Shown here: piece by piece, positions 27,156-44,375 of the stretch | Numbering within the stretch: the stretch's first letter is position 1 | How the letters are laid out: each line of letters begins with the position of its first letter | DNA from: an uncultured Alphaproteobacteria bacterium | Lineage (GTDB): Bacteria > Pseudomonadota > Alphaproteobacteria > Rs-D84 | DNA: 64,000 nt | NCBI GenBank assembly: GCA_944389515.1 | Contig: CALXMQ010000004.1 | Location: 1-64,000 of the forward strand | Direction: 5' to 3' | Translations under genes and position numbers: made by a program | Notes under the pieces: generated by a model | The model's database searches: none | The model's input: the letters and a program-made list of their open reading frames with translations, nothing else | Told to the model about the DNA's origin: nothing

Positions 27156-27185
27156 AAAAAAAACGGGGGCTTGCCCCCGTTTTTT
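27156..27185. terminator. Terminator between tRNA-Pro and fabF
   Basis: CGGGGGC/GCCCCCG stem between A7 and T6; serves the tRNA on plus and fabF on minus. Confidence 0.85.
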
Positions 27186-28437
27186 ATTCTGCAAATCGCT
27201 TGATAATCAAACTGGCATTGGTACCCCCAAAACCAAAAGAATTACTCAATGCAACATTGACAGGTCTGTTCTGGGCAACATTTGGCACCAGATTAAAATC
27301 ACCAACCTCTTCTTCTGGATTTTCCAAATTGATTGTTGGTGGCACAATTCCGTCACGAATTGACATTACACAGAATATCGCTTCTACTGCACCCGCAGCC
27401 CCCAACAAATGCCCAGTCATTGATTTTGTTGATGACATGCACGCATTGGTACCACCAAATAAAGTTTTCACAGCGGCCAATTCACCCATATCACCCAATC
27501 CAGTTGATGTCCCATGTGCATTTATATAATCAACATCACCTGGTTGCATACCAGCATCACGCAACGCCGCCTGCATTGCGCGCATACCACCTTCGCCACC
27601 TGGGGCTGGTGCAGTAATATGATATGCATCACCAGACAAACCATAACCTGCAACTTCTGCATAAATTTTTGCACCACGTGCAACGGCGTGTTCATATTCT
27701 TCCAGAACCAAAATACCGGCGCCTTCGGCCATAACAAATCCATCACGGTCTTTATCCCATGGGCGCGACGCTTTTTCTGGCGCATCATTACGCGTAGACA
27801 ACGCCTTCATCGCACAGAAACCTGCGACACCAATTTTTCCAACGGCACCTTCGGATCCGCCTGCGACCATAACATCGGCATCGCCATGCTGAATCAAACG
27901 AACTGCTTCGCCAATCGAATGCGCCGCAGATGCACATGCCGTCACCACAGATAAATTTGGTCCCTTTAACCCATATTTAATAGACACATGCCCTGCGGTC
28001 ATATTTATAATAACCTTTGGGATAAAAAACGGACTGATATGGCGTGGCCCATTTACATATAATTCTGCGCAATTATCATAAATTGTATTTAATCCACCAA
28101 TTCCTGCGCCAATCGATACCCCCATCCGAGTTTTATCACCATCATAATCTGCCAATCCAGCATCACGCATTGCTTCATCTGCTGCGACAACACCATAAAT
28201 AATGCACTTGTCCATTTTACGCTGTTCACGAACATCAACAACCGCATCAGGATTATATTGTCCTGGTTCTGTGCCAACAATCGGCAAACCTGCAATTTGT
28301 GATGTTAAATCAGACGCATCAAAAGTATCAATTTTACGCACGCCAGAAACACCATTTACAATGTTTTTCCATGCATATTCAATACCCGTTCCAACTGGTG
28401 ATACAATTCCCATACCAGTGATAACAACTCTTTTCAT
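27184..28437 (-). CDS. fabF: Beta-ketoacyl-ACP synthase II
   Basis: KAS II of 417 aa, the chain-elongating condensing enzyme of fatty-acid synthesis. Active site Cys in VTACASAAHSIGEAV (about residue 167), catalytic His in NAHGTSTGLGD and in KSMTGHLLGAAG. C-terminal GFGGTNASLI matches the family. Downstream of acpP, with a hairpin between them. AAAGGA ribosome site. Confidence 0.97.
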   Translation of the reverse strand: MKRVVITGMGIVSPVGTGIEYAWKNIVNGVSGVRKIDTFDASDLTSQIAGLPIVGTEPGQYNPDAVVDVREQRKMDKCIIYGVVAADEAMRDAGLADYDGDKTRMGVSIGAGIGGLNTIYDNCAELYVNGPRHISPFFIPKVIINMTAGHVSIKYGLKGPNLSVVTACASAAHSIGEAVRLIQHGDADVMVAGGSEGAVGKIGVAGFCAMKALSTRNDAPEKASRPWDKDRDGFVMAEGAGILVLEEYEHAVARGAKIYAEVAGYGLSGDAYHITAPAPGGEGGMRAMQAALRDAGMQPGDVDYINAHGTSTGLGDMGELAAVKTLFGGTNACMSSTKSMTGHLLGAAGAVEAIFCVMSIRDGIVPPTINLENPEEEVGDFNLVPNVAQNRPVNVALSNSFGFGGTNASLIIKRFAE

Positions 28438-28573: not shown

Positions 28574-28807
28574 TTATTTTTGGTGTGCTTCGATATATTC
28601 AACTGCTTTACCAACAGTATCCAATTTCGCTGCATCTTCATCTGGGATTTGGATGCCGAATTCTTTTTCAACTTCCATAACGAATTCAACAACGTCCAAA
28701 GAATCTGCGCCCAAATCATTTACGAACGAAGATTTTTCTTCAACTCTTGCTTCTGGAACACCCAGTTTATCCACTACAATTTTTTTTACTTTTTCAAAAG
28801 TAGTCAT
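28574..28807 (-). CDS. acpP: Acyl carrier protein
   Basis: ACP of 77 aa from ATG 28807 (AAAGGA upstream). Phosphopantetheine site Ser in [12 protein letters not shown], helix [15 protein letters not shown]. Strongly acidic. Carries acyl chains for FabF and PlsC, which are both in this window. Confidence 0.97.
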
Positions 28808-28941: not shown

Positions 28942-29940
28942 CTATGCCATAATCTCGGACAACAAATTATTCATATTGGTACGAAAGTCTTCTTTATCAG
29001 ATGCCCACGTCAGTTGACGCATAATAAATTTATTTACATCATCCATTGTCAAATTTGGTATACCTGCGGCACGTGCCACACGTTGCCACGCAATCCGCGG
29101 ATCTGTTAAATGCCCACGACCACGCCCTGGGAAAACCCAACGACCATCTTGGGGTAAATCTTGCAATAACACAACCGCCATATCAGACAAAGGCATATCA
29201 CGCCAAGTATAATGATTAAAATCTAAATCGCGCCACTGCATCGAAAACACCTGGGACTTTGATGCGAAACCATATATCAGCATTAAAAATGCCGCACGTA
29301 AATTTGTATCCGCCACATTTTCAATGGCATGCACCAATCGATGAAACCCAGATTTATTCAACGGCCGTATACGACGATTTTGTTGTATCTTTGGCAACCC
29401 AACCCCAGGATTGATTTTGGCATATCCTGTATCAACCGCATACTTAAAAACACTTTGCAAGAATTCTTGCATGCGTCCTGCGATTGCCGGCCCATTGATT
29501 TGTGAAATCGTATTTGTAATATCATCAGATGTTATATCTGTAATATTTTTATCCATCAGTGGGACTAAATGCCGTGCAATGGCGCGTTCTAATTTATCAC
29601 GTGATACACTGTTACGACGCACACGTTTTTCCAAATATATATCCAGAAATTTTTTTAATGTAATTTTTTTACGGTGCACATGCGGTTTTTCCATCGCAGC
29701 CGCCAACACATCTGCAACCGCGCCACGCGCAGTTTCAATATCAACATCAGGATAATTACCAATTATAATACGACGATCACGACCATGAACACGTCTGCGT
29801 ACAAAAAAAGTTTTCACCCCACGACTGGTTACATACATGCGCAGGCGCGGTTCAGATATATCCTGGACAACATCAAATCCGACACTGGGTGCTGGTAAAT
29901 TATCCAATATGAACGGATTAAAAAAGAACTGATGCGCCAT
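28942..29940 (-). CDS. Degenerate tyrosine-recombinase-like protein
   Basis: 332 aa. Residues about 20-85 resemble the arm-type DNA-binding domain of phage and island integrases (YVTSRGVKTFFVRRRV, IIIGNYPDVDIETARG). A SAM-like core-binding domain and a catalytic-domain fold follow (FLMLIYGFASKSQVFSMQW). The catalytic set is missing: the first Arg position reads SKSQ, the HxxR box is replaced by MDDVNKF, and no C-terminal Tyr stands in context. So it probably binds DNA but does not recombine. It is the last gene after the three paralogs at 29966-31401, 25 bases downstream. Confidence 0.7.
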   Translation of the reverse strand: MAHQFFFNPFILDNLPAPSVGFDVVQDISEPRLRMYVTSRGVKTFFVRRRVHGRDRRIIIGNYPDVDIETARGAVADVLAAAMEKPHVHRKKITLKKFLDIYLEKRVRRNSVSRDKLERAIARHLVPLMDKNITDITSDDITNTISQINGPAIAGRMQEFLQSVFKYAVDTGYAKINPGVGLPKIQQNRRIRPLNKSGFHRLVHAIENVADTNLRAAFLMLIYGFASKSQVFSMQWRDLDFNHYTWRDMPLSDMAVVLLQDLPQDGRWVFPGRGRGHLTDPRIAWQRVARAAGIPNLTMDDVNKFIMRQLTWASDKEDFRTNMNNLLSEIMA

Positions 29941-29965: not shown

Positions 29966-30577
29966 TTATCTCGCATTTTGGTCAAACAATTTATTACGCC
30001 AAAAATTCATAAGTTTACCTACACTGTCTTCATATTTTACCTTGGTCTGGAAATAATCTTTATTACGCTGATAAAACGCACAATCTTTATTTCTGCAACG
30101 ACCACCATATAAATTATCTGGATGAAAGCTACGACAAAGTTTCGTAGTGTAATCAAACGCATCTTCACGGCACAAAATTTTTACACATGCCGTGCAATTT
30201 TCATCTGTATACGTTTTACTATCAAATGCGCGCACTAACGCATCATATTTATCTGTTACATCAATATGCAACGCTTCGCAGTCTTTATTTAATTGACGCC
30301 AATCTTTGATGCATTGATACGCCCGTCCAACAAACGTGGTTCTTGGTCTGGGTTGCTGATTGATATATTCTACAATATCACCAACTGTGTCACAGTGAAC
30401 CGCATAATCATATGGGATTCGTACATTTAATTTTTTTTCAATCGCCCCAATCAGTACAACCTTGTCCAGGCTATCCAAGCCACAATCTGTATCCAATACA
30501 GTATTATTATTGATATACTTTTTATTGATACGAAAATGTTCAGATATAATTTTTTTCACAGAATTTTCAGTATTCAT
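29966..30577 (-). CDS. ACP domain fused to Cys-rich module (paralog 3)
   Basis: 203 aa from ATG 30577 (AAAGGA upstream). Residues about 1-75 are an acyl-carrier domain: helix pattern KKIISEHFRINKKYI, phosphopantetheine Ser in CGLDSLDKVV, then IPYDYAVHCDTVGDIVEYI, matching the nearby AcpP line by line. The rest is related to the two genes upstream: CRNKDCAFY, KDYFQTKVKYE and NFWRNKLF. A DSL-type carrier on an unknown basic Cys module suggests delivery of an acyl or other phosphopantetheine-bound group. Function unknown. Confidence 0.75.
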   Translation of the reverse strand: MNTENSVKKIISEHFRINKKYINNNTVLDTDCGLDSLDKVVLIGAIEKKLNVRIPYDYAVHCDTVGDIVEYINQQPRPRTTFVGRAYQCIKDWRQLNKDCEALHIDVTDKYDALVRAFDSKTYTDENCTACVKILCREDAFDYTTKLCRSFHPDNLYGGRCRNKDCAFYQRNKDYFQTKVKYEDSVGKLMNFWRNKLFDQNAR

Positions 30578-30591
30578 TTTACTAATCCTTT

Positions 30592-30969
30592 TTATCTGCA
30601 ATTTGCGAATTTTTGTGCCCAATAAATTTTACGCTGCTTGACCAAAGCACGATACACATGCTTGGCTTCGAAATAACGTACATTATTTTGATAATATGGA
30701 CACACAGATGTATCACACGGCTTTTCACAATTAAATCGCATACAATTACCCTGTCCTATACGGGCAAAAATTATATTATCATATTTGAAATCTGGAACCA
30801 TACACGCATATGTTGTAACACAACCTGCGTCATGCCCAGACAACTTCTTTTTCGCCAATTTGAATTTACGTGCCGCCGTTTTTACATCAGCGCACAGCTT
30901 TTTATATTCCGCATAATCTGCATGAATTGTGTACCGTGGCGTTTTTGTTATATACGTCCATCCAGACAT
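30592..30969 (-). CDS. Unknown Cys-containing protein (paralog 2)
   Basis: 125 aa, basic, no signal peptide. N-terminal HADYAEYKKLC helix matches paralog 1 (CADFTEYRKLN). C-terminal module: CMRF, CDTSVCPYY, VRYFEAKHVYRAL and IYWAQKF. Four or five Cys could bind a metal. Gap of 14-15 bases to each neighbour, so one transcript. No family recognised. Confidence 0.7.
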   Translation of the reverse strand: MSGWTYITKTPRYTIHADYAEYKKLCADVKTAARKFKLAKKKLSGHDAGCVTTYACMVPDFKYDNIIFARIGQGNCMRFNCEKPCDTSVCPYYQNNVRYFEAKHVYRALVKQRKIYWAQKFANCR

Positions 30970-30984
30970 AATTACTTCCTTTTT

Positions 30985-31401
30985 TTATTTTATACGATTA
31001 AATTTTTCACGCCAAAAGACATTACGATTACGTTTCAAAACTTCGTATTGTATTTTGTTTTCAAAATATTCCCGATTAAATGAATAATATTTGCATTTAT
31101 CTTTATCACACGGCCAACAACTTTTAACAAAATTTGGACATTCAAATTCATATTCACGCAATACAGGCATCCCCGTTTCAAAATCCAGTTCTGGCCGCCA
31201 TACCTTTTGCACACACCCAGCAAAAATCTGGGCTGGTGGCACAATCCCATAATTTTTACCAACATTTGCCATCATACCAATATACGCACGACGCATATTT
31301 CGATGCACATTTGATATTTGTGAATTTAACTTTCGATATTCTGTAAAATCTGCACAAATTTGTTTTCCAGAATTATTCATTAAATATTTAATTATTTTCA
31401 T
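30985..31401 (-). CDS. Unknown Cys-containing protein (paralog 1)
   Basis: 138 aa, starting 19 bases after lepA, with AAGG 8 bases before ATG 31401. Same architecture as the next two genes: N-terminal CADFTEYRKLN helix, then CPNF, CDKDKCKYY, REYFENKIQYEVL and VFWREKF. No membrane segment or signal. Function unknown; position ties it to lepA. Confidence 0.7.
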   Translation of the reverse strand: MKIIKYLMNNSGKQICADFTEYRKLNSQISNVHRNMRRAYIGMMANVGKNYGIVPPAQIFAGCVQKVWRPELDFETGMPVLREYEFECPNFVKSCWPCDKDKCKYYSFNREYFENKIQYEVLKRNRNVFWREKFNRIK

Positions 31402-31420: not shown

Positions 31421-33217
31421 TCAGTTTACTTTTAATGCATTTATAAATGCAGACTGTGGAATTTCTACATTTCCAAATGTCCGCATACGTTTTTTTCCCT
31501 CCTTTTGCTTTTCCAGCAACTTGCGCTTACGCGTAATATCACCACCATAACATTTGGCAGTCACATCTTTACGATACGCCGCAATGGTTTCACGTGCGAT
31601 AATTTTCCCACCGATTGCGGCCTGTAATGGTATTTTGAATTGATGCCGTGGGATTAAATCCTTTAACCGTTCAACGATTTGCCGACCGCGTTTTTCTGCG
31701 AAACTGCGATGACACATAAACGACAAAGGTTCTACATTTTCATCATTGACCAATATTGATACCTTAACCAAATCAGACGGCCGATACCCCTGAACCACAT
31801 AATCAAACGACGCATATCCTGATGATATAGATTTAACCCGGTCATAAAAATCGAACACAATTTCTGCCAATGGTAATTGATAAACCAACACGGCCCGATT
31901 TCCAACATATGAAATATTTTCCTGAACCCCACGCCGTTCTGCACACAACGACATAATTCCACCCATATATTTATCAGGCATCATAATTGTCGCACGCACC
32001 CACGGTTCTTCAACAGATGCGATTCGTGTTGGATCTGGCATATCAGCAGGATTTTCTAAATCCATAACCGACCCATCACGTAAATAAACCTTGTATAACA
32101 CACTGGGCACAGTGTTTATCAAATTCAGTCCAAATTCACGTCGCAACCGTTCACTGATTATTTCCATATGCAGCAAGCCTAAAAATCCGCAACGCAACCC
32201 AAACCCCAGCGCAGATGATTTTTCAACAGTAAATACAAACGATGCATCGTTTAACGCTAACTTTTCTGCCCCATCACGCAACGCCGGATAATCATCTGCT
32301 TCGACCGGAAAGAACGATGCAAACACCACCGGCACAGATGGCTTGAACCCAGGTAACGGAACACAACTTGCCCCACTGCGCGCATCAACAATAGTATCCC
32401 CAACCTTGCAGTCATGGATTGTTTTCATACCTGTGATAATAAATCCAATTTCACCCGTTTCCAACGAATCGACATCAACCATCTTAGGTGTAAAATATCC
32501 AATTTTTTCAATAATATATTCTGCACCGGTTGCCATAAATCGTATTTTTTGTCCGCGCGACAGATTACCATCCACAACGCGCACCAACACCACAACCCCC
32601 AGATATGAATCATACCAAGAATCCACCAACAACGCACGTGCCGGCGCATTTTCATCGCCACGTGGTGCCGGTAATTTTTGCACAATTTCTTCTAATAATT
32701 CTGGAACACCTGCCCCAGTTTTACCAGACACGCATAACGCATTTGCCGCGTCCAATCCGATTACATCTGCAATTTGTTCACGTGTTGCATCAACATCACT
32801 GGACGGCAAATCAATTTTATTCAGCACAGGCAACATTTCTAAATCATTATCCAATGCCAAATACGCATTTGCCAACGTTTGCGCTTGGACCCCTTGGGTT
32901 GCGTCAACTAAAATCAACGCACCTTCGCATGCCGCCAAAGAACGTGATACTTCATACGAAAAATCGACATGGCCTGGTGTATCCATCAAATTTAACTGAT
33001 ACGTTTGACCATCTTTGGCTGTGTAATTCAATCGAACTGTTTGCGCCTTTATCGTGATACCCCGTTCACGTTCTATATCCATCGAATCTAAAACCTGAGC
33101 CTTCATTTCGCGTGATTGCAAACCACCAGTATATTCAATCAACCGATCAGACAATGTTGATTTTCCATGATCAATATGCGCAACAATGGCAAAGTTTCTA
33201 ATATTATGCTGTTTCAT
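31421..33217 (-). CDS. lepA: Elongation factor 4 (LepA)
   Basis: 598 aa. GTPase motifs [17 protein letters not shown] and NKIDLP are intact; the LepA-specific C-terminal domain is present ([24 protein letters not shown]). Acts on stalled or mis-translocated ribosomes and in assembly. It has a promoter and a small leader hairpin (CTGGTG/CACCAG). Likely drives the three unknown genes downstream. Confidence 0.97.
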
Positions 33218-33290: not shown

Positions 33291-33758
33291 TTATCTTTTA
33301 TTTGTATTTAATATTTTGCCCATTATGTATTTACCACCAATATTGATATATCCATGCCTGGAATAAAATTGTGCGGCTTGGATTGTCGGCACACGTTGCA
33401 ATACAATCGCACCGACGCCATTTGCACAACAATATTCTTCATACGTTCGCAGCAATGTTCCACCAATTCCAGACCGATGATACCGCTTGTCCACAAATAA
33501 ACTGTCTATCTTGGACTGAACAATGTTTCCGCACCACTGCTGAAATACTGGTGCACCTAAAATTTTACCTTTGATAAATCCCAATGGTCCCCATACACCG
33601 TTATACAAGAATAAAATATGCCCACGACTTTGCACATCATCACGCAATGTACCCTGTATCCCAATCGCAGCCCCCGGCCGCACCTGATCCACAATACAAT
33701 ACAGACTGTTCACCAAAGAATCACTTACATTAAAAACTTGATTTACTGGCGATTTCAT
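33291..33758 (-). CDS. GNAT-family N-acetyltransferase
   Basis: 155 aa. The acetyl-CoA loop is DKRYHRSGIGGTLLRTYEE (motif A) and motif B is QAAQFYSRHGYINIGGKYIMGK. Substrate not readable. Its ATG directly follows the rbfA stop, so translation is probably coupled. Confidence 0.82.
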   Translation of the reverse strand: MKSPVNQVFNVSDSLVNSLYCIVDQVRPGAAIGIQGTLRDDVQSRGHILFLYNGVWGPLGFIKGKILGAPVFQQWCGNIVQSKIDSLFVDKRYHRSGIGGTLLRTYEEYCCANGVGAIVLQRVPTIQAAQFYSRHGYINIGGKYIMGKILNTNKR

Positions 33759-35911: not shown

Positions 35912-35946
35912 TAAAAAAAATCCCACCATGCGGTGGGACTTTTTAT
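35912..35946. terminator. Terminator after the 35943 fibre gene
   Basis: TCCCACC/GGTGGGA stem with a 4-base loop, T8 on the minus side and T5 on the plus side. Confidence 0.85.
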
Positions 35947-37637
35947 TCTACCCAAATTGTTGCATATGTTGTGCCACTTTCACCACCAACCGGAATTTTA
36001 ACATTTCCCTTGGTTACGGATACTTTTCCATCTGTTTGTGACACATCCGTCACAACCGCACCACTTCCCGTCACCGTACCTTTCAATGCAGTTATCTGGG
36101 ACTTGGTCGCATAAGTGCTTGCAATATTATTCCCAGATGCATCCGCCGTTGCACGTGCCGCAGTACCATCTTTATCCAACTTGTCTGCCAATGCAGTTGT
36201 CAGTCCAGAAATCTTGCTTTGTGCGATTGCAGCAGAACTGGAAATATTCGCATTTGTAATCAACGCAGGCGCAACATTACCCGACGAATTTACCACCATC
36301 ACATCATTTGCATTTGATGTACCTTGGGCTGTTGCAACCTTGCCACTCAATTCAGTCTTGGTTGCATACGTGGATGTAATAACATTTCCACTGCCATCTT
36401 GTGTTGCCTTGGTCGCGGACGTCGCGGTGGTCGCAGTATCTGCCGTATCAGCATGATCCGCGTTTGTCGCATTGGTTGCATTGGTTGCATTTGTGGCTGT
36501 TGTTGCACTGGTTGCAGTATCCGCCTTGGTTGCACTGTTTACCGTTACAACACCTGTTGAACTGACAGATATATCACCACCAGATTTCACACCACCCAAC
36601 GCATCAGCGGTCGCAGCCTTCAACACATATTCATCTGGTAAATCAGCCGATGTAATAAATCCACTGTTGTTGGTCAGCTGGCTGGTTGTGGTCGGCACAG
36701 TAATATTAATCGTTTTATTCGCAGACGCATTGGCAGTAAACGTGTCAACAGTCGCACCATTTTTCTGAATAGTCAACGTTGCATTATTTACCGTCGGAAT
36801 TGTTGGCGTGTCTGTCAAATCATCATACGAACCACTGGTTGCCACATCTGCCAACCCAGAAATCTTAGATGCCGCAATCGCTGCACTGGCTGATATATCT
36901 GCATTTACGATTGTGCCATCTGCGATTTTAGCTGACGTAACCGCACTATTTGCCAAATTATCATTTGCAACCGCACCCGTACCAATTTTTGCAGATGTAA
37001 CCGCATCATCAGCAATCATGCCACTGGATATTGTTCCTGTTGTAACATTACCAGATGAATTTGTAATAACCGCTTTATTGGCTGCGTCTGTCCCTTGGGC
37101 AATGGCGACTTTGCCATTTGCTGCTGTCTGGGCGGCACTGGCTGTGCTTTGTGCTGTTTTGGCCGCTGCGGCGGCGTCATCTGCCGCTTCTTGTGCCGCT
37201 TCGGCGGCCGCCTGGGCGGTACTGGCCGCATTTGTTGCAGTGCTGACCTTGCCAGAAACTTCCTTGATTGCGGTTACAACTGTTGTTGCAGTTGTCCCCA
37301 TATTTGTTGCATTTACTGTTCCAACCTGGGCGTTATATGTCGCGGTTGGCAATTTTGAATTCGCTGCCGTTTGGGCTGCTGCGGCTGCATCAGCCGCATC
37401 ATCAGCCGTGCTTTGCGCTGCTTCTGCTGCACTTTGGGCATTCGCAGCGGCACTGGCCGCATTTGTTGCAGTGGTACGAACAGTACCCAACGCAGAATTG
37501 GTGGCGTAATCGCCCGCAACCTGTCTGGTGCCAACCTGTTGGTCAACGTATCCCTGGGACGCAATATTTGCGTTTGCCACACTGACCGCCATCATGGCCA
37601 TAAAAGAAACTGCGAAAATACTTTTTGACTTTATCAT
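35943..37637 (-). CDS. Secreted Ala-rich coiled-coil fibre-like protein (copy 4)
   Basis: 564 aa. Signal peptide ending SVANA, then the family mark NIASQGYVDQQVG. The body is Ala/Thr/Ser coiled coil (AAEAAQSTADDAADAAAA) alternating with beta-type repeats (SAKIGTGAVANDNLANSAVT). DKDGTAARATADASGN is identical in copy 3. It ends with a compact ATIWVE. Looks like a trimeric fibre such as a phage tail fibre or autotransporter stalk, but has no membrane anchor. Function unknown. Confidence 0.75.
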   Translation of the reverse strand: MIKSKSIFAVSFMAMMAVSVANANIASQGYVDQQVGTRQVAGDYATNSALGTVRTTATNAASAAANAQSAAEAAQSTADDAADAAAAAQTAANSKLPTATYNAQVGTVNATNMGTTATTVVTAIKEVSGKVSTATNAASTAQAAAEAAQEAADDAAAAAKTAQSTASAAQTAANGKVAIAQGTDAANKAVITNSSGNVTTGTISSGMIADDAVTSAKIGTGAVANDNLANSAVTSAKIADGTIVNADISASAAIAASKISGLADVATSGSYDDLTDTPTIPTVNNATLTIQKNGATVDTFTANASANKTINITVPTTTSQLTNNSGFITSADLPDEYVLKAATADALGGVKSGGDISVSSTGVVTVNSATKADTATSATTATNATNATNATNADHADTADTATTATSATKATQDGSGNVITSTYATKTELSGKVATAQGTSNANDVMVVNSSGNVAPALITNANISSSAAIAQSKISGLTTALADKLDKDGTAARATADASGNNIASTYATKSQITALKGTVTGSGAVVTDVSQTDGKVSVTKGNVKIPVGGESGTTYATIWVE

Positions 37638-37704
37638 AACTGTATTTACCTACACTAAATCGTTTCGTTCCACTGCTTTATTTATTTTATTCAACTGTTC
37701 CCTG

Positions 37705-37734
37705 TTGTGTGCGGTGTATTTGCACCGCACACAA
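37705..37734. repeat. 12-bp perfect hairpin between fibre genes
   Basis: TTGTGTGCGGTG and CACCGCACACAA around a 6-base loop, just after the copy 3 stop. T5 follows only on the plus side, so on the transcribed strand it is more like a stability element. Confidence 0.65.
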
Positions 37735-37741
37735 TTTTTCA

Positions 37742-39208
37742 CTATTCACCATCTGTGCTGCGTTCAATAACTTCCCATGCATATTGAGAATTATTATACG
37801 TCAACACGCATTTGTTGGTCGGTTCTGCACATGTTCCAGACGGTTTTGGAATCGCCGCATTTGCAGTTGTTTGCGCCTGGGTCGCAGTTGATTGTGCTGC
37901 TTCTGCTGCACTTTGGGCTGTTGCTGCATCTTCTAATGCCTGGGTGGCATCTTCCTGGGCAGCGGCCGCCGCAGATTGTGCCGCGGTTGCAGTACTGCTG
38001 GCTGTATTTGCCGTACCACGCACTTCGTTGATTGCGCCTACAACAGTCTTGTTCGTTGTTTCCAGACCTTCATCAGTCTTGTCTTGCTTTAATGCCAAGT
38101 TATCATCAGTTGCCATATTGGCAATTTCTGCCTTGGTTGCATACGTTGTTGTGATTACATTACCAGACGCGTCCGCCGTTGCACGTGCCGCGGTACCATC
38201 TTTATCCAACTTGCCTGCCAAACCACTTGTCAACGCACCTGTTGTTGCAAATTCTGCTGCATTATGCGTTACGATATCACCATATCCTTCGATGGTAGAT
38301 TCAACCGCATCAACCGCATTCTGCGCACCTGTTGCTGTTGTTTGTGCTGCGGCCGCCTTTGATGCAACTTCATTGATTGCTGCGACTGCATTAGTTTTGG
38401 CTTGGGTTGTCAATTCAGACAATGTACCAATGTTTGTCAATGCCGATTGCGCGTTTGTGCTGGCCGTGTTGGCAACTGTTTCTATTGATTTCACTGCATA
38501 ATCAGCATCTGCATCTGTCTTGGTTACATATTCTGCCAAATCAGCCTGTTGCAATGCTGTATCTGCCTTGTCCAAAGATGCATTGACTGTATCCGACAAT
38601 TTTGCTTCTGTCACAGCCTTGTCCGCAATATCAACGGTTGCAACTGCGCCATCTGTAATCTGGGCACTGCCCACAGCATCCAATTCTGCCAATGCGCCCA
38701 AATCAGCCGTATTCGCTTTGCCAGTCATCTGTGTTTGCAATGTGTCAATTTCACCTTCGGCGGTAGTAACACGTGTACCTAATGCATCCAAATCACCACT
38801 GCTGGCGATACCTTCGGTTTCTGTCTGGATGGTATCCCATACCGCCTTGGCTGATGGATATTGTGCATCTGTTGATTCTGCTGACAATGTTTGTGTTTTG
38901 TTTGTCGTTCTTTCAACATTGGTTATATCACCTGGCTGAACCGCGGTATCCGCCAACGCCCCTTGGGCTGCGGTTGCATATTCTGCTGAATTATGCGTTA
39001 CGATGTCGCCATATGTTTCCATTGTATCTTGGATTTCACCAATCGATGTTGTATGTCCAGATACTGTGCCTTGTAACGTTGAAACCGTTGATGAAACACC
39101 ACCAACCCGTTGATCAACGTATCCTTTTGATGCGATACTTGCATTTGCGGCATTGGTCGACACAACGGCCAATAACGTTGCAAATATTCCTGCTGTCAGT
39201 TTCTTCAT
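37742..39208 (-). CDS. Secreted coiled-coil fibre-like protein (copy 3)
   Basis: 488 aa. Signal peptide ending ANAS; family mark SIASKGYVDQRVGG; heptad-type Ala coiled coils; segment AESTDAQYPSAKAVWDTI shared with copy 1. The C-terminus has two Cys (GTCAEPTNKCVLTYN) and YAWEVIE, like copy 2. No anchor. Probably cotranscribed with its neighbours. Confidence 0.75.
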   Translation of the reverse strand: MKKLTAGIFATLLAVVSTNAANASIASKGYVDQRVGGVSSTVSTLQGTVSGHTTSIGEIQDTMETYGDIVTHNSAEYATAAQGALADTAVQPGDITNVERTTNKTQTLSAESTDAQYPSAKAVWDTIQTETEGIASSGDLDALGTRVTTAEGEIDTLQTQMTGKANTADLGALAELDAVGSAQITDGAVATVDIADKAVTEAKLSDTVNASLDKADTALQQADLAEYVTKTDADADYAVKSIETVANTASTNAQSALTNIGTLSELTTQAKTNAVAAINEVASKAAAAQTTATGAQNAVDAVESTIEGYGDIVTHNAAEFATTGALTSGLAGKLDKDGTAARATADASGNVITTTYATKAEIANMATDDNLALKQDKTDEGLETTNKTVVGAINEVRGTANTASSTATAAQSAAAAAQEDATQALEDAATAQSAAEAAQSTATQAQTTANAAIPKPSGTCAEPTNKCVLTYNNSQYAWEVIERSTDGE

Positions 39209-39257
39209 TTTTCCTTCTTTTTTCTTACTTTATTTCTTTTTCAAATTCCCTGTGGTA

Positions 39258-41051
39258 TTATTCAGCCGGCTGCGTTACCGCCACCCATGCCAAATCACCT
39301 TCTGGTGTCACAGATAATACGCACAGATTTGAATCCGCAACGCAATCCGCCGTTGGCGCCGGCAACGCGCCATTTATTACTGAAACCAAATCATCACTCA
39401 ATTTATCTTCGGTTACAGCATTATCTTTAATTTTTTCTGTGGTAACAGCCCCATTTGCAATTTTTTCTGTTGTAATTGCATTTGGCCCGATATTATCAGG
39501 ATTTACCGGTATACCATCAGTTGACAACTGTTGAATTTGTTGGTCTGTCCACGTGGTGATTGCGCCAATTGTCGGGAACAGTGTTTCAGACGATTTATTG
39601 CCATCATTGATTATTTTGGTCTTATTAGATGTATCTTCTTTGTCTGCCAATCCAGACGTCAACGCACCCGTTGTTGCATACCCAGCCAAAGCACTTTCAT
39701 CGGCCTTGGCATCCAACAGACCATCTGTTTCGGTCTTGGTATACGCATCGGTTATGCCATAACCAGCCAACGTGGTTGCCTTGTCCGCTTTGCCGTCAAC
39801 GGTTGTTTCCAACGCATCGACTGCATCCTGGGCGGCGCCAGCCGCATCGGCCGCTGCATCAGCCGCATTTTTGGCATCGGTAACATCTTTGACCAAACCA
39901 GATTCGGCATTACCAATTTGCTGGGTAATATTTGTAATCTGTTGGGTTAAACCATTTTCTTCATTGTTTATCGTGTCACCCAAATTCGTCACTGTTTCGT
40001 TGATTGTTTTATATTGTTCCGTAACATTGGTGACATTTTGTTCAATTTCTTCCAACGCGGTTGTATCGGCCTTGCCCGCCAAAGCCGTGGTCAAACCAGT
40101 AACCTTGTCCTGGCCGATTGTCGCGGCGGATGTAATATTACCAGACGCATCAGTTGTCACGATATGATTTTCGTGACCGACACCCATTGCAATGTCCTGC
40201 TTGCCAGAAATATCGGCAATTTGTCCCGCCAATGTTTCATCCAATTTATCGGATGTCACGGCACCATCGGCAATATCATCAGTACCAACCGCACCGTCTG
40301 CAATCTGGCCCGAACCAACGGCATCATCAGCAATTTTGTCAGATGTCACCGCATCATCGGCGATTTTATCAGTTGTGACCGCGCCATTTTCCAATTTACT
40401 GCCAGCAATAGTTCCATCTTCGATATTACCGGGGTTAACTGGCAACCCAGTATCAGACAAATCCGCAATCTTTTTATTAGTCCATTGAACGATTGCGCCC
40501 ACTGACGGATATGCTGTTGGCGATGTTTGATTACCTTCGTTGATTTCAGCCGCCTTGTTTGATAAAACTTCATATGTTGTTGCAGCGGTTGCAGAATCCA
40601 ATTTGGAATCCATTTCTGTATCCAACTGACCAACCGTTGTTTGCAATCCACCGACCGATGTTTCCAAATCATTTACATCTTTGACCAAACCAGATTCCGC
40701 ATCACCAACGGTTGCCCCCAATGCCTCTACCGCGCTTTGTGCGCCGGCTGCAGTTGATTGGGCGGTATCAGCGGTTTGTTTCGCTTCGGCCGCAGCGGCA
40801 GCAGCATCGTCAACCTTGGCCGCCAGACCAGTATCTTCGTTATTGATTGTATCACCCAACTGGGTAACCTGTTCAGTCAGGTTTGTAACATTTTCCTTGG
40901 TTTCATATGTATTGCTGACCGTTTGCAGGATTGACGTTTCACGATTATCAACGTACTGCTTGCTGGCAATTTGGGTTGCAGCGTTGGCCGCACCGGCACT
41001 GAACAGTATCGCCGCCATAAATCCAGAAAATACAATATTTTGTTTTTTCAT
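39258..41051 (-). CDS. Secreted coiled-coil fibre-like protein (copy 2)
   Basis: 597 aa. Signal peptide ending AANA, then QIASKQYVDNRETS. Two copies of a module of about 75 residues start near residues 172 and 482 (YPSVGAIVQWTNKKI; FPTIGAITTWTDQQI), each followed by GLPVNPGNI or GIPVNPDNI and then ladder repeats (IADDAVTSDKIADDAV). LGDTINNE recurs between coils. C-terminus: DCVADSNLCVLSV with LAWVAV. Only 14 bases from copy 1. Confidence 0.75.
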   Translation of the reverse strand: MKKQNIVFSGFMAAILFSAGAANAATQIASKQYVDNRETSILQTVSNTYETKENVTNLTEQVTQLGDTINNEDTGLAAKVDDAAAAAAEAKQTADTAQSTAAGAQSAVEALGATVGDAESGLVKDVNDLETSVGGLQTTVGQLDTEMDSKLDSATAATTYEVLSNKAAEINEGNQTSPTAYPSVGAIVQWTNKKIADLSDTGLPVNPGNIEDGTIAGSKLENGAVTTDKIADDAVTSDKIADDAVGSGQIADGAVGTDDIADGAVTSDKLDETLAGQIADISGKQDIAMGVGHENHIVTTDASGNITSAATIGQDKVTGLTTALAGKADTTALEEIEQNVTNVTEQYKTINETVTNLGDTINNEENGLTQQITNITQQIGNAESGLVKDVTDAKNAADAAADAAGAAQDAVDALETTVDGKADKATTLAGYGITDAYTKTETDGLLDAKADESALAGYATTGALTSGLADKEDTSNKTKIINDGNKSSETLFPTIGAITTWTDQQIQQLSTDGIPVNPDNIGPNAITTEKIANGAVTTEKIKDNAVTEDKLSDDLVSVINGALPAPTADCVADSNLCVLSVTPEGDLAWVAVTQPAE

Positions 41052-41065
41052 TTTTCAAATTCCCC

Positions 41066-43579
41066 TTACATTGCTATTTCATACCAAACCGGATTACCTT
41101 CGCCGTCGGTACCCAGTACGCTGTTTTCAGACGCACCCGCCATACTTACAGCATCAGCAGCCTTGTCCAAAGCCGCCTGAACATCCAATGCCAATTTTTC
41201 TTTCGCGATTTCCGCATCATCTGCAACATCGTCGTTCTTTATCTGGTCTTTTTTTGCCAATGCACCCAAATCTGCTTCATCTGCTTTGCCGTCAATTTCT
41301 GCCTTTAATTCATTAGACAATTTGTCCGCAGTCACAGCCCCATTGGCAATATTGATTGTATCAATCGCACCTTCACCGATACTGTCTGGGTTTACCGGTA
41401 TACCAGAATCAGCCAATTCATTTATCTTGGTATTTGTCCACTGCGTAATTGCCCCAACCGTCGGATATTCATCAGACGACGATTGATTATCCGCAGTAAT
41501 TGTACCCACCTTATTTGCTAAAACTTCATACGTATTGGCTGCTGTGCCGGCATCTAACTTGGAATCTAATTCAGTATCCAAACCACTGACCGTTGTTTCT
41601 AATGTACCAACTGTTGTACCCAAATCATTTACATCTTTGACCAAACCTGATTCTTCATTACCAACAACGCCTTCTAATACATCAACTGCACCTTGGGCAC
41701 CCGTCGCCGTATTCTTGGCTTCTTCGGCCGCTGTTTGTGCCGCACTTGCTGCATCTACTGCATCCTTAACCTGGGCTGCTAAACCAGTGTCTTCATTATT
41801 GATTGTGTCGCCCAATTCAGTTACCGTTTCGTTTATCATTTCGTATTGATTGGTAACGTTGGTTACACTTTCTTCTATCGCATCCAATGCCGACGCATCT
41901 GCCTTGCTGGACAACGCCGTTCTAACCGCAACCGCAGATGGATATTGGTCCGATGTTGATTCTGCTGTTATTTCTTGTATCTTGTTTGATTTGTCTTCTT
42001 TACCATCAATTTCAGCGTTTAATGCAGTATCCAAATCACCTGAACTGATTGTACCGTCCGCTATATTATCAGTCGTGATTGTATCATCTGCAATCTTGTC
42101 GCCTGTGATGGTGCCATCTTCTAATTTATCACCGGTAATTGACCCTGGGGTAATATTATCTGGATTTACCGGGATACCCGTTTCACCTAAACCAGAAATC
42201 TGTTCCCCAGTCCACTCAACAACCGCCTTGATTGACGGATACGCATCTGTGGATGTTTGGTTACCGGCATTGATTGCATCTGCCTTGTTTGTTAAAACTT
42301 CGTACGTACTGGCCGCGGTACTGGCATCTAACTTGGAATCTAATGCAGACTTATCCGCCTTGTTACCCAACGCCGATGTAACATTTGCAACCCCCAACGC
42401 CGTATCTGTTACCAAGTCATTTATTTCATCCAGTTCTGTATCCAACGCAGTAACCGAACCGACCGTCGCATAATTACTTAGTTCTGATTTATCAGCCTTG
42501 GTTGCCAACTGGTTATCAACATACGTTTTATCTGCCTTGGCATCCAGCGCCGCACTAACATCACCAGAAACACCCTGGTCAATCATGCCATCGATTTCTG
42601 TTTTATTATAAACCTGTGACTTGGTATAAACATCTGCCACGTTTGCCTTGGTATCTAACTGGGCATTTACATCTACTGTATTTGCCTTGGCCGCTACTTC
42701 ACGTTCTAACTTTTGAAAATCTGTCTGCGAAACATATGTATTTGCCAAATTCGTAATCGCATTACTGATTGCCAAATTCATTTCTTCTGTTGTTGAATAC
42801 GCTTCTAAATCAGCTGCCTCGCCCGGTTCACCCTTTTCCCCTTGGGGACCTGTAATTTCAGATTTAGAAATCAAAACACGCCAATCATTATCACCATCGC
42901 CACTGTAACGCCATAATAAATCAGTATCATTTGACCCCAATTCAACTTCGCGTCCATCCTGGCCAGCGACCAAATCCAGCGCACTTTCTAATGCATCAAC
43001 ATCAACAAAGATTTCATTGGTCATATCATCAATCACGATATACCCATCTTCGCCCGGATATATTTTATCCTGTTTATCCAACAACGCATCTGTTATCGTA
43101 TCATCTGCGTCACGCAAATCTTCCATATCACGATGTAATTGATCAACTTCTTGCCGCAATTCAGACGCAATATCAGGATCCATACTGCCACCACCACCAG
43201 TTGATGACCCACCCCCAGACGAACCCGGTGTTTGTGGGCGCAATGAACTGCCCCCACTGACGGATGTACCACCACCCAAATAATGTCCGATTGATAAACG
43301 CGGCGTTGTCGCAACACGCCCACTGGTTGTTGTACCTGCTTCTATTGTTGTGCTGGTCCCAGACACCCCAGACGTCGGATTCACACGCACCGAACCACCA
43401 CGCACAGACGCAGTCGAACTGGTTGAACCACTGCCTGCGGCGGCCGCGCTGGATGCACTGGTATACGTTCCGGCACCACCCAACGAACGAACCGAAGACG
43501 CGCCATACGCCCCAGATACAGCAGCCGTACATAATACGCAAATTATTGCCAGTGTTGAAGTTTTCAGATCTCTTTTCAC
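41066..43579 (-). CDS. Secreted coiled-coil fibre-like protein (copy 1, largest)
   Basis: 837 aa. Signal peptide ending AYG, a Ser/Gly/Thr-rich low-complexity region to about residue 135, a coiled coil (ELRQEVDQLHRDMEDLRD), a collagen-like stretch GPQGEKGEPGEA near residue 241, then coils and two YPS/YPT-WT modules near residues 438 and 696 with GIPVNPDNI and IADGTI ladders. It ends in VWYEIAM. Largest of the four paralogs, first in the cluster, with its own promoter. Surface fibre or adhesin role is an inference. Confidence 0.75.
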   Translation of the reverse strand: MKRDLKTSTLAIICVLCTAAVSGAYGASSVRSLGGAGTYTSASSAAAAGSGSTSSTASVRGGSVRVNPTSGVSGTSTTIEAGTTTSGRVATTPRLSIGHYLGGGTSVSGGSSLRPQTPGSSGGGSSTGGGGSMDPDIASELRQEVDQLHRDMEDLRDADDTITDALLDKQDKIYPGEDGYIVIDDMTNEIFVDVDALESALDLVAGQDGREVELGSNDTDLLWRYSGDGDNDWRVLISKSEITGPQGEKGEPGEAADLEAYSTTEEMNLAISNAITNLANTYVSQTDFQKLEREVAAKANTVDVNAQLDTKANVADVYTKSQVYNKTEIDGMIDQGVSGDVSAALDAKADKTYVDNQLATKADKSELSNYATVGSVTALDTELDEINDLVTDTALGVANVTSALGNKADKSALDSKLDASTAASTYEVLTNKADAINAGNQTSTDAYPSIKAVVEWTGEQISGLGETGIPVNPDNITPGSITGDKLEDGTITGDKIADDTITTDNIADGTISSGDLDTALNAEIDGKEDKSNKIQEITAESTSDQYPSAVAVRTALSSKADASALDAIEESVTNVTNQYEMINETVTELGDTINNEDTGLAAQVKDAVDAASAAQTAAEEAKNTATGAQGAVDVLEGVVGNEESGLVKDVNDLGTTVGTLETTVSGLDTELDSKLDAGTAANTYEVLANKVGTITADNQSSSDEYPTVGAITQWTNTKINELADSGIPVNPDSIGEGAIDTINIANGAVTADKLSNELKAEIDGKADEADLGALAKKDQIKNDDVADDAEIAKEKLALDVQAALDKAADAVSMAGASENSVLGTDGEGNPVWYEIAM

Positions 43580-43643: not shown

Positions 43644-44375
43644 TTAAAATTCATATCTGATACCGACTGATATCGAATTATCCAATATGAAATCTATATC
43701 ATTTTGGAACCAATGCACGCCATTTTGGTTATCATATATATCATTTATACGATGATCTGCACCAAACAGACCAGACAAACGATACCGCACATCCAAAACC
43801 AGGTTATAATCCAATTCATAAGAATATCCCAACATTACACCAGCCATCGGTGAAAATCCGTATTCTGTACGGTCACTGCCATCAGCCCAAACCATATCGA
43901 TGGTGGTTATTGGCATTGCCGCACCAATACCAGCCCCCAAATACAGACCATTTGTAAAATCATAATATCCATTTAACATCACATACGGAATCTGCATTGT
44001 AAATTCAGCCGCCGCATCTTTGTCCTGGAAATACCCCAGATAGCCTGCTTCTAATTCAGCACGCCAAAAATATGCAAATCGCGTACCACCAAACAAACTG
44101 CCACCAAATACTGGTTCAAAAGAATATTCATCACTGCTGTAACCAGTATCAACGATACCCAATTCAATCATCGCATCATCAACACTGTATTTATTTTTCC
44201 AATTCCAGAAATTCAAATCAGCCCGTGCACCGATATACCAACCAGTTTTTGCCTTGTCCGTATAATCATACGTAACGACATATCCGCCCTGTCCATCGCG
44301 TGTCAGATAACTGGGCGCCGCCACCGCAGGCATAGTCAACCCAAGTAAAACAGCCAAAGATACTAATCTTTTCAT
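43644..44375 (-). CDS. Outer-membrane beta-barrel protein (opacity-like)
   Basis: 243 aa. Signal peptide ending AVAA, then strands alternating with Gly/Tyr-rich turns (GWYIGARADLNFWNWK, GGTRFAYFWRAELEAGYLG) and a terminal ISVGIRYEF. Resembles the eight-strand OmpA/opacity group by length, without a peptidoglycan domain. AAGGAAGG ribosome site. It lies directly before the fibre cluster, 64 bases upstream. Confidence 0.8.
   Translation of the reverse strand: MKRLVSLAVLLGLTMPAVAAPSYLTRDGQGGYVVTYDYTDKAKTGWYIGARADLNFWNWKNKYSVDDAMIELGIVDTGYSSDEYSFEPVFGGSLFGGTRFAYFWRAELEAGYLGYFQDKDAAAEFTMQIPYVMLNGYYDFTNGLYLGAGIGAAMPITTIDMVWADGSDRTEYGFSPMAGVMLGYSYELDYNLVLDVRYRLSGLFGADHRINDIYDNQNGVHWFQNDIDFILDNSISVGIRYEF

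Follow-up and report, generated by a model that had tools for sequence, protein, structure and literature searches.

A four-cysteine protein family encoded behind lepA in Candidatus Enterousia and allies

Comparison with described systems

Structural C4 zinc domains of the treble-clef and zinc-ribbon kinds combine four cysteines with a beta-hairpin and a helix after it, prefoldin-type coiled-coil hairpins link two antiparallel helices by beta structure, and LYR-motif proteins are small, basic, and helical, bind acyl-ACP (acylated acyl carrier protein) in mitochondria, and in some cases act in ribosome assembly. Each bears some likeness to the products of three genes, paralogs A, B, and C, that follow the translation GTPase gene lepA in the 64-kb stretch of DNA analyzed here (the window). 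The zinc domains share their cysteines, beta-hairpin, and following helix with this family, but the family has no CxxC or CPxC knuckle, its site lies at the tip of a long hairpin of two helices, and neither a profile nor a fold match joins the two. Prefoldin (6nr8_1), which shares the hairpin of antiparallel helices, had the highest target-normalised TM-score (0.53) among the PDB matches listed; it was rejected, the match having a Foldseek E of 3.5, a probability of 0.20, and an rmsd of 10.3, with no match in the sequence search, and prefoldin is not known to have a zinc site. The resemblance to LYR-motif proteins, as small basic helical proteins partnered with ACP, serves as a lead only, as the family shows EY[KR] in place of a clear LYR motif, carries four cysteines, is a two-helix hairpin, and is accompanied by an ACP in one subclade only; a Pfam scan of 51 members, with matches counted up to E 0.1, gave no LYR family model.

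Two further comparisons concern parts of the proteins. The second half of the family matches the zinc subdomain of T4 gp32 (2a1k, profile E 0.016; likewise weakly 2atq, 1gpc, and 8gme), and both have C-x9-C, then CxY..N..Y and a later YW..N, but gp32 has C-x2-C where the family has C-x4-C. The pattern is not kept across eight aligned gp32 relatives and hhalign gave a probability of 14%, so we regard the likeness as coincidental. The N-terminal domain of C resembles the acyl carrier proteins of PF00550, including the DSL serine, but it is fused to a four-cysteine domain and is additional to the housekeeping acpP.

The initial annotation had recognized no known family, and profile searches, together with structure prediction and Foldseek, bore this out in the libraries searched, none of which held a named homolog. 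Paralogs A and B had no credible match in Pfam or PHROGs, searches of the four-cysteine family against PDB sequences, PHROGs, NCBIfam, and PADLOC were empty or chance-like, and the fold search returned no match at E <0.001 in the PDB or the viral library. A Pfam match to Occludin_ELL (E 0.0093 for B) was below its cut-off and was seen in 2 of 51 members, and we attribute it to chance. Our literature search found nothing on this family. As measured against every library searched, the family is undescribed.

The lepA locus, the cysteine motif, and the predicted fold

The family genes lie in a tight run of genes (Table 1), in which 19 bases separate lepA from A, 15 separate A from B, 14 separate B from C, and 25 separate C from an integrase-like gene. 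The coordinates of the three genes and the gaps of 14-19 bases behind lepA in the initial annotation were correct on recheck. Scans of the run for promoters and terminators gave a signal near the shuffled background, which is indecisive as to the transcript; the family genes are presumably co-transcribed with lepA. Elsewhere in the window, a GNAT acetyltransferase gene (33291-33758) lies between rbfA and lepA and has patchy matches among relatives, so this slot is variable too. Four large acidic proteins (564, 488, 597, and 837 aa) are encoded in succession at 35943-43579 with no Pfam domain above cut-off, the first having, as judged by eye, a signal-peptide-like start, and an outer-membrane beta-barrel gene (43644-44375) adjoins this cluster.

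Table 1. Features of the lepA locus in the window, and counterparts of the fourth family copy in other genomes
Feature	Coordinates	Strand	Remarks
lepA (translation GTPase EF4), heads the tight run	31421..33217	-	Pfam GTP_EFTU + LepA_C
Paralog A, 138 aa	30985..31401	-	cysteines C63, C88, C98, C103; AlphaFold model
Paralog B, 125 aa	30592..30969	-	cysteines C50, C76, C85, C90, matching those of A
Paralog C, whole gene, 203 aa	29966-30577	-	ACP domain + four-cysteine domain
ACP domain of paralog C, residues 1-76	30350..30577	-	PF00550; DSL attachment serine S36; helical in model
Four-cysteine domain of paralog C	29966..30349	-	cysteines C131, C148, C161, C166; helix, beta strands, helix in model
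Degenerate tyrosine-recombinase-like (integrase-like) gene, ends the run in almost every relative	28942..29940	-	catalytic Arg, HxxR, and Tyr missing
Housekeeping acpP, the next gene past the integrase-like one; separate from the ACP domain in C	28574..28807	-	start taken as the Met of MTTFEKV
fabF-type ketoacyl-ACP synthase, next after acpP	27184..28437	-	Pfam scan + comparison with relatives
Counterparts of the fourth copy	L299:1501-1872, L300:1501-1872		

It is clear from local alignments scored against 1000 shuffles that A, B, and C are paralogs, as had been claimed: the z-scores were 15.7 for A-B, 8.6 for A-C, and 6.5 for B-C, and 0 of 1000 shuffles equalled the observed scores. The motif [CH]AD[YF]xEY[KR]KL was found in A and B as initially described, and the C-terminal motifs CxxF, C-C-x-[FY]Y, YFxxKxxY, and [FY]WxxK are present in A, B, and C, although the spacing between the paired cysteines is x4 in all three rather than the x3-5 first given. 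That description was also incomplete, having overlooked a fourth invariant cysteine upstream (in AGCV in A and B and in TACV in C). The shared C-terminal pattern survives alignment with 104 real and diverse homologs, in which the four cysteines are conserved without exception (in A: C63, C88, C98, and C103) at a mean column identity of ~21%; other strong positions in A are Y6, D18, E21, Y22, L25, F91, N109, Y112, F129, W130, and K133. The cysteines of A are spaced C-x24-C-x9-C-x4-C. Longer relatives of 196-369 aa occupy the same slot in some genomes (L207:2041-2823, L207:2830-3939, L224:1536-2324, and L228:5042-5632), and one 260-aa protein at L207 has two four-cysteine modules. A pI >8 is found in 98% of family members, with a net charge of ~+5 per helix and ~0 at the tip; since 55% of predicted ORFs in the window also exceed 8, the high pI is weak support for an adaptor that binds through its basic helices.

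The AlphaFold model of A, built on the family alignment (pLDDT 91.7, pTM 0.80), has helices at 12-43 and 106-137 and a beta-hairpin with strands at 64-72 and 79-87; C63 and C88 stand at the two feet of this hairpin and C98 and C103 just ahead of the last helix. The model of C (pLDDT 92.0) has an ACP-like helical domain and then the same order of elements as A. From the models, whose secondary structure would suit such an arrangement, we infer that the cysteines probably form a C4 site, most probably holding one zinc ion, that locks the tip of the helical hairpin. The cysteines could instead be redox-active or bind an Fe-S cluster, with the protein sensing or handling oxidative stress, and the conservation of all four in a gut bacterium that ferments and has no respiratory chains (PMC12306168) could be taken in that direction. 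A conserved CxxC pair is absent, however, and the placement of the cysteines on a beta-hairpin and at the start of a helix is typical of structural zinc, making a redox or Fe-S role very doubtful.

Distribution, turnover, and exchange

The source genome (947 kb, 98.6% complete) belongs to the order Rs-D84, whose members are known for genome reduction and probably depend on partners to live (PMC12306168), and its named relatives are Candidatus Enterousia and allies. Of the order's 201 genomes, 119 have the family; they are distributed over 4 of 23 genera that all fall in one taxonomic family, mainly in Ca. Enterousia, and 289 genomes sampled across the class gave matches only in the window's own genus. 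With the integrase-like gene as bait, we collected loci for comparison of gene order, and 78 of them (window included) held both lepA and the integrase-like gene. The family lies between the two in 71 of the 78, with 1 copy in 34 loci, 2 in 14, 3 in 17, 4 in 5, 5 in 1, and 0 in 7. Two of the seven zero-copy loci (L215 and L241) have short ORFs with a similar cysteine pattern, as judged by eye, and in the remaining five the integrase-like gene begins 6-28 bases past lepA. The same order is found in another genus of the same taxonomic family (L259), and copies away from lepA occur in other genomes (e.g., L076, L080, L255, and L256).

The gene order that the initial annotation drew from this one locus is thus kept across the genus, but as a run of 0-5 copies and not as a fixed triplet. 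Likewise, its description of the genes as locked behind lepA fits most relatives, in which they follow lepA tightly, but not the 7 of 78 loci without a recognized copy, the copies elsewhere, or a copy, described below, that has been exchanged. Nor can a tandem triplication be upheld as an event: in the family tree, A, B, and C fall in orthologous groups common to several species, so that the triplication predates this species. The best reading is that the family evolves by birth and death, through tandem duplication, loss, and occasional transfer.

A profile search detected a fourth family member in the same genome, a protein of 123 aa encoded on another contig (G000 contig C3, L285:8120-8491). 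Close counterparts, at 89-90% protein identity, were present in only 2 other genomes of the 96 searched in the genus; the shared stretch is just 0.5-0.6 kb, and the sequences flanking it there bear no relation to those around the fourth copy here. When this genome is compared with the other two, dS of the fourth copy is 0.03-0.05, whereas lepA and fabF in these pairs give ~1.0-1.15, and on this evidence the copy is a recent transfer between species. Its dN/dS in these comparisons is 1.2-1.6, a ratio that comes from few changes. One of the two counterparts (L299) is flanked by imperfect inverted repeats of ~73 nt (1241-1313 and 2087-2159).

Such mobility, together with fast divergence, might be expected of a defense or counter-defense component in conflict with phages or mobile elements, one that turns over rapidly downstream of a housekeeping gene with steady expression. 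In one relative (G029), A is 53% identical, whereas lepA is 93% and the integrase-like protein 73% identical, and lepA is 87-97% identical in nearly all genus genomes searched. The variable copy number and the exchange of one copy as a short unit at unrelated sites fit a conflict as well. We nevertheless consider a role in conflict unlikely, as no PADLOC or PHROGs family is common to the members, the PADLOC matches being weak and limited to single members; neither A nor the fourth copy had a relative in viral contigs; dN/dS is low in close pairs; and no defense neighbors were seen. A known anti-phage defense family is rejected on the PADLOC result, and a phage origin on the viral contigs, the PHROGs searches, and the lack of a fold match in the viral library.

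Alternatively, the copies could be weakly constrained or selfish passengers for which the interval from lepA to the integrase-like gene is a permissive place to accumulate, which would suit a copy number of 0 to 5, the empty loci, and the one mobile copy. Against this, the cysteines are invariant in all 104 members, and close family pairs have dN/dS values of 0.13-0.39, indicative of purifying selection and hence of genes under constraint. The spacing is tight, the orthologous groups are long-lived, and the integrase-like protein, having lost its catalytic residues, is unlikely to be the enzyme that inserts family copies. Passengers are for these reasons an improbable explanation, and constrained genes that undergo birth and death are preferred.

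At E ≤1e-15, 176 of the order's 201 genomes have the integrase-like gene, almost all of them members of the window's taxonomic family, and it is mainly a single gene inherited vertically. The protein is strongly conserved, with a mean column identity of 71% across 17 diverse homologs. Its likeness to tyrosine recombinases covers their arm- and core-binding parts, and the alignment of lambda Int to it stops at lambda Int residue 224. The column of the first catalytic Arg of lambda Int is Ser or Pro, and the C-terminus is without HxxR and Tyr. The missing catalytic residues and the vertical inheritance rule out an active integrase, and the gene is an old resident that probably encodes a domesticated DNA-binding protein and probably does not mark a mobile element.

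The acyl carrier link and a proposed role

C opens with a true ACP domain of 76 residues, as initially proposed, which matches PF00550 over residues 7-72 (E 6.7e-8; 33.1 bits against a gathering cut-off of 20.8) with the attachment motif GLDSLD at S36. A second, divergent ACP at the lepA locus was found only in the window and in 5 of 80 named loci: the window, L182, and L183 have it as a fusion with a family member, L187 and L194 as a separate ACP between family members, and L174 as a tandem double. The DSL serine is kept in all seven extra ACP domains, as it is in acpP, and the genome encodes a phosphopantetheinyl transferase (PF01648), which supports a real carrier function for the extra ACP in this subclade. 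Because only one subclade has the extra ACP, the family in general can do without it, and to speak of a dedicated system with an ACP, as the initial annotation did, was too strong.

The initial annotation had also suggested that the four-cysteine domain handles a group bound to ACP as a thioester. The fused, separate, and double forms with their retained serines, the transferase, and the presence of acpP and fabF after the integrase-like gene could all be accommodated in such an ACP-dependent pathway. The core of the family is independent of ACP, however, the four cysteines look structural and unlike a catalytic dyad or triad, and no enzyme of thioester chemistry is encoded in the interval from lepA to the integrase-like gene. 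A role of this kind is doubtful for the family, and thioester chemistry is conceivable for the ACP-bearing members only.

Given the predicted fold, the constraint, and the turnover, we tentatively favor, with somewhat less than even confidence, a lineage-specific family of non-enzymatic, basic helical-hairpin adaptors with structural zinc that evolves by birth and death and most likely binds RNA, ribosomes, or other proteins. Each would be a small cytosolic protein, having no signal peptide, in which two long basic helices pack as an antiparallel hairpin whose tip is locked by the beta-hairpin and the C4 site, zinc playing a structural part only. The basic helical faces would grip a partner, for which RNA or the ribosome is the likeliest candidate because the gene is nearly always directly behind that of the ribosomal GTPase LepA. 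The protein would be made together with LepA, and gain and loss of copies by tandem duplication and occasional transfer could let partner specificity shift fast. In one subclade, a second ACP joined the locus, and its pantetheine arm or an acyl group would there tether the adaptor to acyl metabolism. LepA is not dependent on the family, since some loci have no copy and some copies lie away from lepA, and the operon position may reflect expression level rather than function. The family could even represent a new class of zinc hairpin proteins, associated with ribosomes or RNA, in a gut lineage of reduced genomes; one branch would have recruited a second ACP and later fused it, so that, as in the mitochondrial LYR-ACP modules, the acylation state controls a translation-linked adaptor, but this is a long shot.

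One would not expect bacteria whose genomes are <1 Mb to retain and amplify a fast-evolving gene family, yet this is what most Enterousia species do, and at one and the same site. With its four invariant cysteines and a confident model that has no fold match, the family is a well-defined target for biochemistry, and the series of separate, doubled, and fused ACPs offers a before-and-after picture of a carrier protein recruited to a new partner.
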